Assembly: GCF_012972675.1 (NCBI RefSeq) | Contig: NZ_JABCRE010000002.1 | Location: 609,001-673,000, forward strand | From: Pontixanthobacter rizhaonensis | GTDB taxonomy: Bacteria > Pseudomonadota > Alphaproteobacteria > Sphingomonadales > Sphingomonadaceae | DNA: 64,000 nt | Reading direction: 5' to 3' | Notes under the pieces: generated by a model | Seen by the model: only the letters and a program-made list of their open reading frames with translations | Told to the model about the DNA's origin: nothing | The model's database searches: none | Translations under genes and position numbers: made by a program | Part shown: positions 37,875 through 42,117 of the stretch, piece after piece | Layout: each line of letters starts with the position of its first letter | How positions within the stretch are numbered: the first letter of the stretch is position 1

Positions 37875-38114
37875 GATGCTGGCTTAGCGGTTCGGATGGG
37901 GGACGGGAAGACTACGCTTCCTGAAAAACCCTAAGCAGGAAACTGTGAACTGGGGTGCGCAGCTCACATTTTCGAAAAGACCGGTGCGGCTTGGATGATC
38001 ACAGGCTTGTAAACCCAGCCGGTCATGCCCACTTTGGAGGTATCGAGGGGTCATCTACGTGCTCATCCTCGACTGAGAGACCACATCGCGCTCCCGCATT
38101 AGGGAGGAAGCACA

Positions 38115-38330
38115 TTGGATCTCAATAAACTCTTTTATGATCATCAAGCGGCATTGATAAGAATTGCCTTTGGCAGAAATGCAATGGGCGCGGGCACGGG
38201 TGCGATGTATGCAGAGGCGCTCATCTGGAGGGCTCGGCAAAAGTTAGGTGTCGCACAGTACCCTCCAGCCCATTTGCGGGGCCCCGAAGCTCGAATTCCT
38301 GTTCAAGCGTTTGAAAGGGTTTTGTTATGA
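38115..38330 (+). CDS. Small soluble protein coupled to SET-domain gene
   Basis: A 71-residue protein starting at TTG 38115 with GGGAGG seven to eight bases upstream, a better ribosome binding site than most in the window. The sequence LFYDHQAALIRIAFGRNAMGAG is reminiscent of small sphingomonad proteins that begin with 'LYxxHQ', whose function is unknown. It has no signal peptide. The stop TGA overlaps the ATG of the SET-domain gene (ATGA, 38327-38330), so the two form a translationally coupled pair. It may be a partner or regulator of the methyltransferase, which is inference. Confidence 0.65.
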   Translation: MDLNKLFYDHQAALIRIAFGRNAMGAGTGAMYAEALIWRARQKLGVAQYPPAHLRGPEARIPVQAFERVLL

Positions 38331-38860
38331 CCGCAACTGTGGAGCGCCGCGCTACGCCTGATCGAGGTGAAGGTATTTTTGCCCTCCAGCCATTCAAACG
38401 CGGCGAAATTCTTTATGCAGGTGTGCTTGATGGCGCTCCGGTCGACAATCATTCTCACGCGTCGCAAATAAGCAAAACGAAGTTTGGTTTTCACACAGGG
38501 CTTGGATCGATACTCAATCATTCCTGCAACCCGAATTGCGGTATTATCATCAACGAATCTGGCGCACATAATATTGTCGCCATGGAAGGTCTCGCAGCAG
38601 GAGACGAAGCAACCTATGATTACGCCATGCGCAACTACCGTATCGACCACTTTCCTAGTCCGTGCTGTTGCGGGAACACGAATTGTCGCGGCACAATAAC
38701 GGGTTGGATCGACTTACCCCAGCAACGCAAGGATGCCTATGCTGGTTTCGTGGCTCCTTATTTGCTCGAAATAGATCTAGAACAAGGGGTTGCTAGTCGC
38801 AAAGGGGTGGTTTCAAATCGTGTGCTGGCGGGTTTCAAAACCGCTATAGGACAATTGTAA
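38327..38860 (+). CDS. SET-domain protein lysine methyltransferase-like
   Basis: A 177-residue protein with a complete SET fold. RRATPDRGEGIFALQPFKRGEIL is the SET-N strand region, ILNHSCNPNCGIIIN is the pseudoknot NHSC motif, and ATYDYAMRNY is the catalytic Tyr motif. A cysteine-rich post-SET segment CCCGNTNCRGTITG could bind zinc. This resembles stand-alone bacterial SET proteins that methylate lysines of ribosomal or DNA-binding proteins; the substrate is not known here. It is coupled to the small upstream gene. Confidence 0.85.
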   Translation: MTATVERRATPDRGEGIFALQPFKRGEILYAGVLDGAPVDNHSHASQISKTKFGFHTGLGSILNHSCNPNCGIIINESGAHNIVAMEGLAAGDEATYDYAMRNYRIDHFPSPCCCGNTNCRGTITGWIDLPQQRKDAYAGFVAPYLLEIDLEQGVASRKGVVSNRVLAGFKTAIGQL

Positions 38861-38905
38861 GAGACATTCCCCTAGCCACCTATCATTCTCTTGACCCAGA
38901 ACTGC

Positions 38906-38998
38906 TCAGGGAAGCTGCCTATTCAGAGCCAAGGATACCAGCGTCGCAATTAGGATAAGAGTGATAATGAGAGGTGGGTTGTTTAGGATTTTCTTCAT
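38906..38998 (-). CDS. 30-residue single-pass membrane microprotein
   Basis: An ATG at 38998 opens a 30-codon frame ending in TGA at 38908-38906. The product begins MKKILNNPP, followed by a hydrophobic helix LIITLILIATLVSLAL and the tail NRQLP. That is a well-formed single transmembrane segment with positive residues on the N-terminal side. The upstream ribosome binding site is weak (GAAAGCG). It lies on the same strand as three other tiny genes, convergent with the SET-domain gene. Could be a chance frame; the helix and codon use favour a real gene. Confidence 0.45.
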   Translation of the reverse strand: MKKILNNPPLIITLILIATLVSLALNRQLP

Positions 38999-39064
38999 GG
39001 GAAACGCTTTCGTGGACTGTGAAGTTACGGGTGTTAGGATTTGAAGGGGCACGGCTTTTCACCG

Positions 39065-39184
39065 TTATTTGCCCGGCCGGTTTGGTCTTGATTTGAGGTA
39101 GCAGAAAATCCCGACCCCTAGGCCGATGAGCATGGCTGCCAGCAGCGCTGTCAGGCCGTAAACAATAACATCTCTAATTTGCAT
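39065..39184 (-). CDS. 39-residue single-pass membrane microprotein
   Basis: An ATG at 39184 starts a 39-residue product: MQIRDVIVYG, the hydrophobic segment LTALLAAMLIGLGVGIFCYL, and a basic tail KSRPNRPGK. This is a clean single transmembrane protein with a positively charged C-terminus. The start codon lies within the last codons of the next upstream frame (which ends at 39174), indicating translational coupling. Its function is unknown. Small membrane proteins of this size commonly modulate transporters or stress sensors. Confidence 0.55.
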   Translation of the reverse strand: MQIRDVIVYGLTALLAAMLIGLGVGIFCYLKSRPNRPGK

Positions 39185-39359
39185 CTTGGCTCTTCCCATC
39201 ATTCGCCTCGGCAGCAAATTCACGCGCAATCTCGGCATCTTCTTCGCTCAAGGGGGCTGGCACCTTGGCTTCACGCTCTTCTGCGTGGTCCGCTTCCTTT
39301 CCCCAGGCTTCTGCTGCTGCGGCGGCAATATTGCGGCGGTTTGGCAGCGGCTCCGTCAG
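39174..39359 (-). CDS. Acidic small protein of about 60 residues, start uncertain
   Basis: A frame on the minus strand encodes LTEPLPNRRNIAAAAAEAWG, then an acidic helix-like part ending SEEDAEIAREFAAEANDGKSQDAN, stop TAG at 39176-39174. The codon use and amphipathic pattern look genuinely coding. No ATG, GTG or TTG lies in frame before residue 30 or so; the first alternative is a CTG at 39359 with no ribosome binding site. The frame continues upstream into the preceding gene in another phase. Either a non-standard start, a frameshift or a sequence error may be involved. Confidence 0.4.
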   Translation of the reverse strand: MTEPLPNRRNIAAAAAEAWGKEADHAEEREAKVPAPLSEEDAEIAREFAAEANDGKSQDAN

Positions 39360-39424
39360 CGATAATTCTAATTGCCGCGCTTGTTCTGCGCGGCATATTG
39401 CTGCCGTCGGGCGGGACTGAGCGG

Positions 39425-39568
39425 TTACTTGCCGCGTCCGGTTTTCATGTGTTCCAGCCCCGGTATTACCCCAGCTTTCTGCGAAGGGTTCGAGGCATTG
39501 GTTTTGGCTGCTTTTTCCGCTTTTGGTTTGCGAATTTCACGCTTGGATTTTCTTTGTGATTTGGCCAT
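39425..39568 (-). CDS. 47-residue very basic small protein
   Basis: An ATG at 39568 with AAGGA eight bases upstream opens a 47-residue frame: MAKSQRKSKREIRKPKAEKA, then KTNASNPSQKAG, then a C-terminus ending KTGRGK. The Lys/Arg-rich N-terminus with a 'REIRKPKxEK' pattern resembles a class of tiny basic proteins widespread in Alphaproteobacteria, of unknown function, possibly binding nucleic acid or the ribosome. It is the first of the minus-strand small genes, and the next frame begins within it. Confidence 0.65.
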   Translation of the reverse strand: MAKSQRKSKREIRKPKAEKAAKTNASNPSQKAGVIPGLEHMKTGRGK

Positions 39569-39887
39569 CCGGGCATTCCTTAGGTGTTGCTTTCAGGAAG
39601 CCCAATTGAGCGGCGCCTGAGGGATCGCCCAGTTCGGTCTGTCGAACATCCGAACATGGCGATTGCTAATCCTGTCTCAGGAAAGCCAATCAGAAAAATT
39701 CTGATCGTGAAGAGACACCGTCAGACAGTGTTGCGGCTAACATGCCGTAACGACGTGGTAGTGATATGGGGACGCTTGGTAGTGATTGTAAGGCTGATTT
39801 CCTATTAGCGGCATTGCGGCAAACTTTTGGTCCGCAACGGCGGCACAAGCAGACATTTCTCTCTGCTGGCGGTGAGGCGCCCGCATT
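39569..39887. other. Intergenic region without a supported gene
   Basis: About 320 bases between the small basic protein gene and the holin gene. Two open frames on the plus strand (such as 39584-39808) lack ribosome binding sites and family features. The inverted repeat GTTCGG (39632-39637)/CCGAAC (39650-39655) could be a regulator site for the small-gene cluster, which starts about 65 bases further left. Otherwise I see nothing. Confidence 0.4.
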
Positions 39888-40301
39888 CTACCGATCTACA
39901 CCCTTTACCTTGCCCCATTGGCGCGCCGCCGTGTAACCGAGATAGCCAGTGCCGAACAACGCATAGAGCGGCTCTGGCAAACCGCCGAGATAGGCGTTCA
40001 TGCCCGATGCGATATCGGTTGCTGTGGTCGGGCTGAATGCTGCCAGAATGCCCATGGGTAGGGCGGTCAGCAGCAGCACATACATCACATAAAGGAAGCT
40101 GGGGCGGGCGCGGCTGGTCCACGGGTCTTTGGAATTGGCCTCTGCCACAATGGCGGAAAGGCGCGCTTCGATGGATTGCAGCTCATGCGTGCCTTCCAGT
40201 TTCAGCAATTCCAGCTTGGCTTTGGCGCGGGCATCTTTGTCAGGGATGATCTTGTCGATCAGCGATGCGATGGGGCCAATAAGGGATTCCAGTAATGCCA
40301 T
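39888..40301 (-). CDS. GTA-type 3-TM holin family protein
   Basis: About 137 residues from ATG 40301 with GGAG eight bases upstream. The soluble N-terminus (LLESLIGPIASLIDKIIPDKDARAKAKLELLKLE) is followed by RARPSFLYVMYVLLLTALPMGIL and further hydrophobic helices, and the C-terminus contains LFGTGYLGYTAARQWGK. This matches the 3TM holin of gene transfer agents and related phages, which lets endolysin reach the cell wall. There is no endolysin, capsid or tail gene nearby, so it is an orphan. In sphingomonads GTA lysis genes are often apart from the main cluster. It follows the CitE-like gene. Confidence 0.85.
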   Translation of the reverse strand: MALLESLIGPIASLIDKIIPDKDARAKAKLELLKLEGTHELQSIEARLSAIVAEANSKDPWTSRARPSFLYVMYVLLLTALPMGILAAFSPTTATDIASGMNAYLGGLPEPLYALFGTGYLGYTAARQWGKVKGVDR

Positions 40302-40374
40302 AGGGCGCGCTCCAGCGATATGATTCGCAGCGGTGCTAACCAAATGGGTTGGTGTAGGAAAATTATTTCACCAG

Positions 40375-41250
40375 TTAGGCGCTGGCAAGTAAGGCTTTCG
40401 CAAGATCGAGGTGAGGGCGGTCCAGCATTGCGCCATTTAGCCCGACTGTTCCGGCGCCGGAATCGGCATCAAATGCGGCAATGATGGCGCGCGCATGGGC
40501 GAGTTCTTCTTCGCTCGGCGTGAAGGCGTCGTTGATGACAGGCACTTGGGCAGGGTGGATGGCGAGCATTCCCCGATACCCTTGGCTGCGGACCATCAAT
40601 GCGCGTTCTTTCAGCCCATCCAGATCGCGGAAGTCGGACTGGATCGTCTCGATCGGCGCGGCTCCGGCGGCGACGGCACCAACAAGGCACAGGCTGCGCG
40701 CCAATTCAAAGGTCGGCATATATTGGCCGCTTGCTTGAAACTGTACCCGCGCACCAAGGGCAGAGGACAAATCTTCCGCGCCCCAGCTCATCGCGACCAA
40801 TCGCGGCGATCCGGCATATTCGCCGGTGGTAAACATCGCCTTGGGTGTTTCTGTGACCAAGGCAGCCACCTTGGTGCTGCCCGCTGCAATTCCGTGCTTG
40901 GCTTCAAGCTCGCTCAGCATCTGGTCGAGTGCTTCGACGTCTGCCTTACCTTCGGCCTTGGGTAGGAATATTCCGCCTGGCGCGGCCGGCATGATGGCTT
41001 CCAGATCGATCCGGGCATCCTCGCCCGATAGCGGGTTTATGCGGACCCATAGCCGGTGGCGATCGGCGCGCGATGCCAGAAAGGCATGAACCGTGACCCG
41101 CGCCGCAGACTTGCTTTCTGGCATCACCGAATCTTCTAGATCAAGCAGGACAATATCCGCTTCGCCATCTGCGGCTTTGCCCATCTTCTTTGCGCTATCG
41201 CCAGGGGCGAACAGCCACGATCGCGCTTTGATTAAAGAAGTTTCGGTCAC
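40375..41250 (-). CDS. CitE-like CoA ester lyase (HpcH/HpaI aldolase family)
   Basis: A 291-residue TIM-barrel lyase of the CitE/malyl-CoA lyase group. The start SWLFAPGDSAKKMGKA, VLLDLEDSVMPESK, RINPLSGEDARIDLEAI, GGIFLPKAEG and LAIHPAQVPVINDAF are typical, with Mg2+ ligands expected from the Glu and Asp of LEDSV and the later WGAEDLSSALGA segment. Such enzymes cleave malyl-CoA, citramalyl-CoA or related thioesters to acetyl-CoA plus glyoxylate or pyruvate. The exact substrate is not evident, and no citDF genes are adjacent. Cytoplasmic. Confidence 0.88.
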   Translation of the reverse strand: MTETSLIKARSWLFAPGDSAKKMGKAADGEADIVLLDLEDSVMPESKSAARVTVHAFLASRADRHRLWVRINPLSGEDARIDLEAIMPAAPGGIFLPKAEGKADVEALDQMLSELEAKHGIAAGSTKVAALVTETPKAMFTTGEYAGSPRLVAMSWGAEDLSSALGARVQFQASGQYMPTFELARSLCLVGAVAAGAAPIETIQSDFRDLDGLKERALMVRSQGYRGMLAIHPAQVPVINDAFTPSEEELAHARAIIAAFDADSGAGTVGLNGAMLDRPHLDLAKALLASA

Positions 41251-41388
41251 ATCAATCCTCTCAAACGGGCAGGATAGGATGGGTTGATGCAGCCCGCAAC
41301 CATGTAGAGTGCTATGCGATGCAAGGCATCAGCCATCATTGCTGTGCATAAAGCTGTGTATTTTGCATGTTCTTACACGGGGGTAAGA

Positions 41389-41428
41389 TGACGTTACATT
41401 TGATCCGGCGGAATTGATGTAATGGTCA
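41389..41428. promoter_or_regulatory. Inverted repeat upstream of the small gene at 41472
   Basis: TGACGTTACAT (41389-41399) and ATGTAATGGTCA (41417-41428) pair through TTACAT/ATGTAA and TGAC/GTCA with small bulges. They lie 44 bases before the start at 41472, consistent with a promoter or operator. Confidence 0.35.
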
Positions 41429-41471
41429 TTGTATTGGGGCGCTTGGTCCCCCGTTAGATGAGGTCTGCGAA

Positions 41472-41768
41472 ATGGTAGATGTGCTGATGATGTTTGGCTT
41501 CACCGTGATTGGATTTTACTCAATTGCGGTCTTGAACCATTCAATCAAGCTTGGATGGCTACGGTACCGCGCTTTGCAGCGGATCGTGTTTGTCTCCGCA
41601 GACAATGCACCAAAGCAGTCAAATTCAGACCGCTTCGTCCAACAACCGCGTATTGATCATGTAAACGCGCCAGCAGTCATGCAACTACCAATTGTCAGAG
41701 ATTCCGGATTGCGGCCGTCCGGCTATGGCATCGGTTCATCCCGATTGAGGCTACTGATTGCTAGATGA
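41472..41768 (+). CDS. Small membrane protein of unknown function
   Basis: A 98-residue protein with GAGG eight bases before the ATG. It has one N-terminal hydrophobic segment (VDVLMMFGFTVIGFYSIAVL), then a cytoplasmic-looking, basic and polar tail of about 75 residues. I do not recognise a family. It ends 8 bases before the 3' end of tRNA-Pro(GGG), which is on the other strand. The tail is of low complexity, so coding status is plausible rather than certain. Confidence 0.55.
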   Translation: MVDVLMMFGFTVIGFYSIAVLNHSIKLGWLRYRALQRIVFVSADNAPKQSNSDRFVQQPRIDHVNAPAVMQLPIVRDSGLRPSGYGIGSSRLRLLIAR

Positions 41769-41775
41769 ATTCCAC

Positions 41776-41852
41776 TGGTCGGGACGATAGGATTCGAACC
41801 TACGGCCCCTACACCCCCAGTGTAGTGCGCTACCAGACTGCGCCACGTCCCG
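41776..41852 (-). tRNA. tRNA-Pro(GGG)
   Basis: A 77-base cloverleaf on the minus strand. The acceptor is CGGGACG/CGTCCCG with discriminator A and an encoded CCA. The D-arm has GGCGCAGTCTGGTAGCGC, the anticodon stem CTACA/TGTAG encloses CTGGGGG (anticodon GGG), and the T-arm has GTTCGAATC. It reads CCC and CCU. It is the second proline tRNA gene in the window. Confidence 0.97.
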
Positions 41853-41941
41853 ATCCGGTGGAGCGCGGCCTATAAGTCCGACATAGGATTAGCGCAACAA
41901 TAATGGCGACAATTATTGCAAAGAAAGCCGATGCGGTGACT

Positions 41942-41977
41942 GCCCAAAAACAAGGGTGGGCCCAAAAACAGGGGTGG
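41942..41977. repeat. Tandem 18-base repeat
   Basis: GCCCAAAAACAAGGGTGG is followed at once by GCCCAAAAACAGGGGTGG, one difference in 18 bases, and a partial third unit begins after it (GCATGG). It lies in the spacer between tRNA-Pro and yajC, about 140 bases before the yajC start. Confidence 0.75.
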
Positions 41978-42117
41978 GCATGGATACACTTGGCGCGTTG
42001 CCCCCCTCTTGCATTGCTGCTAGGCGGCACCACTTAATTTCAGCGATGCACGCTGTGGGGCCGAAGAACCGGTCTGCACACAGCGTAAACAGAACTAATT
42101 AGGATACAGGCCAACCG

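Follow-up and report, generated by a model that had tools for sequence, protein, structure and literature searches.

Four short open reading frames lie on the minus strand between positions 38906 and 39568 of the window, the whole stretch of 64,000 nucleotides of Pontixanthobacter rizhaonensis DNA that was analysed. All four were located as a sequence-only reading of this DNA had described them, namely, four tiny genes on one strand, two of them coding for single-pass membrane proteins, the transmembrane (TM) helices being recognized from the sequence. The first gene (39425-39568, minus strand) codes for a basic protein of 47 amino acids, MAKSQRKSKREIRKPKAEKAAKTNASNPSQKAGVIPGLEHMKTGRGK, which is probably disordered, and the AAGGA site that had been pointed out for this gene is present about 9 nt 5' of its ATG. 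The next is an acidic frame on the same strand, whose conserved part spans 39174-39398 and which is open upstream to beyond 39452 without an ATG, GTG or TTG start. The third gene, TM39 (39065-39184, minus strand), codes for a 39-amino-acid protein with one predicted hydrophobic helix and its ATG falls within the codons that end the acidic frame (GATGCAAATTAG), an overlap that had also been seen earlier. The fourth, TM30 (38906-38998, minus strand), codes for a 30-amino-acid protein with one predicted hydrophobic helix and is the weakest of the four genes. When Pfam and NCBIfam were searched, none of the four microproteins of the window and none of their homologues scored above a curated cutoff. 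The flanking genes were taken from six-frame ORF lists and not from curated annotation. Upstream of the operon leader that is described below there is a gene for a GTA_holin_3TM family protein (PF11351, 102 bits; 39888-40343, minus strand), and in the relatives that were checked no such gene was seen next to the operon. A tRNA-Pro (ggg) gene is at 41776-41852 on the minus strand.

The gene order, 47-amino-acid gene, acidic gene and TM39, is kept in many Sphingomonadaceae genomes from several genera. At the 18 loci in a named genome collection, which include those of Parerythrobacter lutipelagi, Parasphingorhabdus flavimaris, a Sphingopyxis MAG and a Sphingobium MAG, the 47-amino-acid gene is immediately 5' of the acidic gene in every case (18/18) and a TM39 homologue is immediately 3' of the acidic gene in 13. 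In genome sets that are samples of species, and by searches whose first-look filters can miss short proteins, 209 of 398 genomes of the family were found to have the 47-amino-acid family and 67 the acidic one, and a sample of 190 genomes from across the class had the former in 24. The 47-amino-acid gene mostly occurs without the other three small genes and, therefore, has a role independent of them. In the closest pairs (against G004 and G150) its dN/dS was 0.01-0.10, the lower value being that against G004 with 18 synonymous changes and one non-synonymous change by the Nei-Gojobori method. The ratio for the acidic gene in the closest pairs was 0.14-0.18 (0.14 against G004) and that for TM39 against G004, G150 and G219 was 0.23-0.28 (0.23 against G004). 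With more distant genomes, saturation of the synonymous sites makes the ratios unreliable, and the ratio above 1 for TM39 in the close pair G206-G358 comes from nine changes only. We conclude with high confidence that the 47-amino-acid, acidic and TM39 frames are real genes. The proposal that gene order would be conserved and dN/dS would be below 1 is borne out for these three genes in the closest pairs. Lack of a conserved frame or start codon had been named as the outcome that would count against them, and both are conserved in all three except that the acidic start codon is absent in the window. Reading of the raw sequence can uncover genes that standard annotation probably leaves out.

The acidic protein of the relatives is about 72-85 amino acids long, typically 80, starts at ATG or GTG, and has a conserved N-terminus, MRVKAEICR and similar. 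The acidic frame had been put at about 61 residues, and while the frame is there this length is wrong, the conserved part in the window having at least 73 codons. An ATG, GTG or TTG was sought in the acidic frame upstream of the conserved part in the window and none was found. In G150 a GTG start overlaps the stop of the 47-amino-acid gene (GTGA) and the window reads GTAA at this place; in addition, the window and G150 have in common a one-base length difference beside the old start. It is possible, though we consider it the less likely case, that the acidic gene of the window is decaying after the loss of its start codon and that only the 47-amino-acid and TM genes are still made, and the missing start, the GTGA that has become GTAA and the length difference at the old start as in G150 are what such decay would leave. 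Against this, the conserved part has no stop and no frameshift, and the changes in the window lineage are three non-synonymous to six synonymous over 73 codons, which are small numbers. There are also candidate starts, namely, an ATA immediately ahead of the conserved Cys and the GTA overlapping the stop of the 47-amino-acid gene, at which ribosomes might re-initiate. Because of this count of changes it is likely that the acidic frame is translated currently or was so recently, perhaps from the ATA or by re-initiation. AlphaFold2 predicted three helices for the acidic protein with moderate confidence (pLDDT 79, pTM 0.34), and when a known structure was sought by sequence and by fold none was found, the best fold match having an E value of 7.1. 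In other genera the acidic family also has a longer form, with a conserved FSENPDRGF-like motif at its end (L036, L054, L060, L062).

Homologues of TM30, in a form of 50 amino acids and at the same position in the operon, were found only in G206 and G358, with 41% identity over 29 amino acids; the closer relatives G004, G150 and G219 gave none. Comparison with these homologues gave pS values of 0.79-0.88 and a pN value of 0.33, and no clear ribosome-binding site was seen by eye. TM30 is, as such, a candidate gene whose coding status rests on two comparisons, those with G206 and G358.

Upstream of the 47-amino-acid gene there are promoter-like boxes, TTACAA-N17-CATATC (39763-39791, minus strand), the second of which is TATATG in relatives, and their position and sequence are kept in relatives. 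In the window they match the sigma-70 consensus poorly and the promoter scan did not list them; they presumably act as the promoter. With the transcription start estimated from these boxes, the 5' leader of the operon would span 39569-39756 on the minus strand, a noncoding stretch that is common to the relatives. Within it is a structured RNA core (39668-39719, minus strand) in which a stem, UGUCUC/GAGACA, encloses a hairpin, GAUCAGA/UCUGAUU, and the internal loop carries the invariant GGCUUUCC. In an alignment of nine sequences 97.6% of the cells were paired and three pairs had changes on both sides, and in a sliding control in which the partners were shifted by one to three columns pairing fell to 32-43%. 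With 18 sequences the identical 14 pairs were predicted without a supplied structure. The covariation in the leader is real but modest; most pairs vary little. The leader has what is structurally asked of a cis-regulatory RNA, a conserved and covarying fold within a gene's 5' leader. A search of Rfam with positions 38000-42000 of the window and E values up to 5 left the leader unmatched, and only the tRNA was above its gathering score.

A model of the leader core scored 80 bits in the window, where it had its single match in that genome, and 57-76 bits at the other operon loci. Among 279 genomes of the family it gave 12 matches at E≤0.001, in 11 genomes. The strong matches are found only upstream of the 47-amino-acid operon or of a glycosyltransferase gene of the Branch family (PF02485), and the core is on the same strand as the gene and 60-180 nt ahead of its start codon. 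A weak match (24 bits) lies just 5' of the 47-amino-acid gene in G006, which belongs to the genus of the window, and in G141 and at second-type loci in G206 and G358 the operon has no leader directly upstream. The leader core precedes the PF02485 glycosyltransferase in G079, G169, G184, G206, G158 and a Sphingobium MAG (L098, L103, L125, L127, L128, L131, L132). This glycosyltransferase is usually followed by the 47-amino-acid or the acidic gene, it sits between the leader and the 47-amino-acid gene in G079, G169, G184 and the Sphingobium MAG, and it is alone in G158. The genome of the window itself gave no match to the glycosyltransferase in a search that was done without a positive control. 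That the leader precedes two different first genes, and that in G158 it precedes the glycosyltransferase without any of the small genes, could mean that it is a small RNA in its own right, placed only secondarily upstream of the operon. We consider this unlikely in view of its position on the strand of the downstream gene, 60-180 nt ahead of the start codon, and of the fact that no strong match was found away from the 47-amino-acid and glycosyltransferase genes in the 279 genomes. In many lone 47-amino-acid genes a short hairpin, for example GGGGCATTCCGCCCC, is directly before the ribosome-binding site (L010-L020), and this is a possible second leader type.

Three further proposals about the leader were examined and dropped. 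Sequestration of the Shine-Dalgarno sequence by a conserved CUUUCC loop was not supported, the longest pairing being about 6 nt on average versus 5.2 nt at other start regions in the window, and only G004 and G219 having a perfect pairing of 9 nt. A leader peptide in place of the RNA was rejected by eye, the candidate frames being broken by one-base indels among relatives. A further closing stem was predicted on nine sequences and not on 18 and it is not claimed.

Convergent with the operon is a gene for a SET-domain protein (38327-38860, plus strand), and its linkage to the operon, like the leader RNA, was absent from the sequence-only reading. The protein belongs by its features to the SET-domain methyltransferase family, having PF00856 above the cutoff (40.5 bits versus 22.4) and the NHSC and YDY motifs; in alignments its NHSCxPNC, TYDY and post-SET cysteine motifs are intact. 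The SET gene is rare, 10 genomes among the 398 having it, and seven of these ten (G000, G004, G079, G141, G150, G219 and G358) also have the acidic gene. In all seven the two genes are within about 1.2 kb of each other, in four arrangements: the SET gene is convergent with the operon in G000, G004, G150 and G219, it is upstream of the 47-amino-acid gene and codirectional with it in G141, it is directly before the acidic gene with a stop/start overlap, ATGA, in G079, and it is divergent and about 1 kb off in G358. G000 and G141 have in common the order accC-aroQ-SET with the operon inverted relative to SET (L064, L071), and inverted repeats flanking the operon that might explain this inversion were sought and nothing notable was found.

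This linkage raises the question whether the SET enzyme methylates proteins, with the lysine-rich 47-amino-acid protein as its substrate or the acidic protein as its partner, so that the operon and SET would form a methylation module. The canonical motifs, the pairing with the acidic gene in every genome that has both, the overlap in G079 and the varied arrangements, by which the linkage is more than one inherited order, speak for it. However, 209 genomes have the 47-amino-acid gene and 10 have SET, in three of the SET genomes neither the 47-amino-acid nor the acidic gene is nearby, in G079 the 47-amino-acid gene is located elsewhere in the genome, and the locus may have a common origin in the seven genomes, as the accC-aroQ-SET order of G000 and G141 indicates. 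We, therefore, regard such a module as improbable. The fuller form of it, in which SET would methylate lysines of the 47-amino-acid protein, itself like a histone tail, or work via the acidic protein, while an RNA switch not described before would govern the small proteins, is more improbable still.

The SET protein resembles SET-domain lysine methyltransferases in its PF00856 domain and in the motifs named above, and it differs from them in that it is short, bacterial and encoded next to an operon of small proteins. It also resembles BurB, a SET-domain methionine S-methyltransferase (PMC12542666), with which it aligns over most of the domain (residues 11-137, E 3.7e-8), the widest coverage among the matches, and which is of similar size. 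Unlike BurB, the protein of the window has as its best match a SET domain of the H3K4 type (E 2.8e-10) and keeps NHSCNPNC where BurB aligns LLHSCVPN. Since BurB binds Met mainly through main-chain atoms (PMC12542666), side chains decide little on whether the window protein is of the BurB type.

Two other explanations of the small genes were rejected: a plasmid-borne module, 72,556 plasmid records having given no match to the acidic protein and one partial match to the 47-amino-acid protein, and a toxin-antitoxin pair of the 47-amino-acid and acidic proteins, which do not co-occur as a pair would (209 versus 67 of 398 genomes, the 47-amino-acid gene being often alone).

Operons of small proteins that follow an RNA leader are a known kind of unit, and the protein families and the RNA of the present one are absent from the libraries searched. 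The nearest case is that of a DUF1127 gene with attenuation, a leader-controlled small-protein gene in Alphaproteobacteria (PMC12218461), which is alike in that tiny proteins are made behind a regulated 5' leader and in that the bacterial class is the same. It differs in that the four proteins of the window match neither DUF1127 nor any named family and in that several small genes follow one leader. FixQ/CcoQ (PF05545), a likeness suggested by a small single-TM protein with a basic C-terminus, was rejected, the best score being 22.9 bits versus a cutoff of 29 for one homologue only and the window protein giving no match. Nothing on these genes was found in searches of the literature on the small proteins of this group or on its RNA motifs and riboswitches.

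The best explanation, to which we give a probability of about 70%, is that the locus is a leader-controlled transcription unit that makes small envelope-associated regulators. The frames, their order, the selection on the frames and a covarying leader confined to 47-amino-acid and glycosyltransferase loci were computed here, so that the operon and its leader are well supported, and it is the function that we infer. Transcription would probably start about 190 nt upstream of the 47-amino-acid gene, and the transcript would pass through the structured leader RNA and then the 47-amino-acid, acidic, TM39 and TM30 genes. The leader would control expression in cis, and the overlap of the acidic frame with TM39 suggests that the translation of these two is coupled. 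The two TM peptides would be in the inner membrane, and the helical acidic protein and the lysine-rich 47-amino-acid protein would be in the cytoplasm beside them, where they may regulate an envelope process, for example, surface-glycan modification. This suggestion is made because in relatives the leader precedes a Branch-family glycosyltransferase and then the 47-amino-acid gene, and an envelope role in general because of the TM helices and the glycosyltransferase behind a common leader. The sequence-only reading had offered a stress or envelope module; its envelope half receives indirect support from the two TM proteins and from the loci with leader, glycosyltransferase and 47-amino-acid gene, and no link to stress was found.

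Four protein families and one leader RNA, all outside the libraries searched, are brought together by these results, and it is the genomes of many relatives that tie them to one another. The leader offers a handle on the signals to which the small proteins respond, and the linkage to SET is a testable lead on how a SET methyltransferase is used in a bacterium with no known host target.
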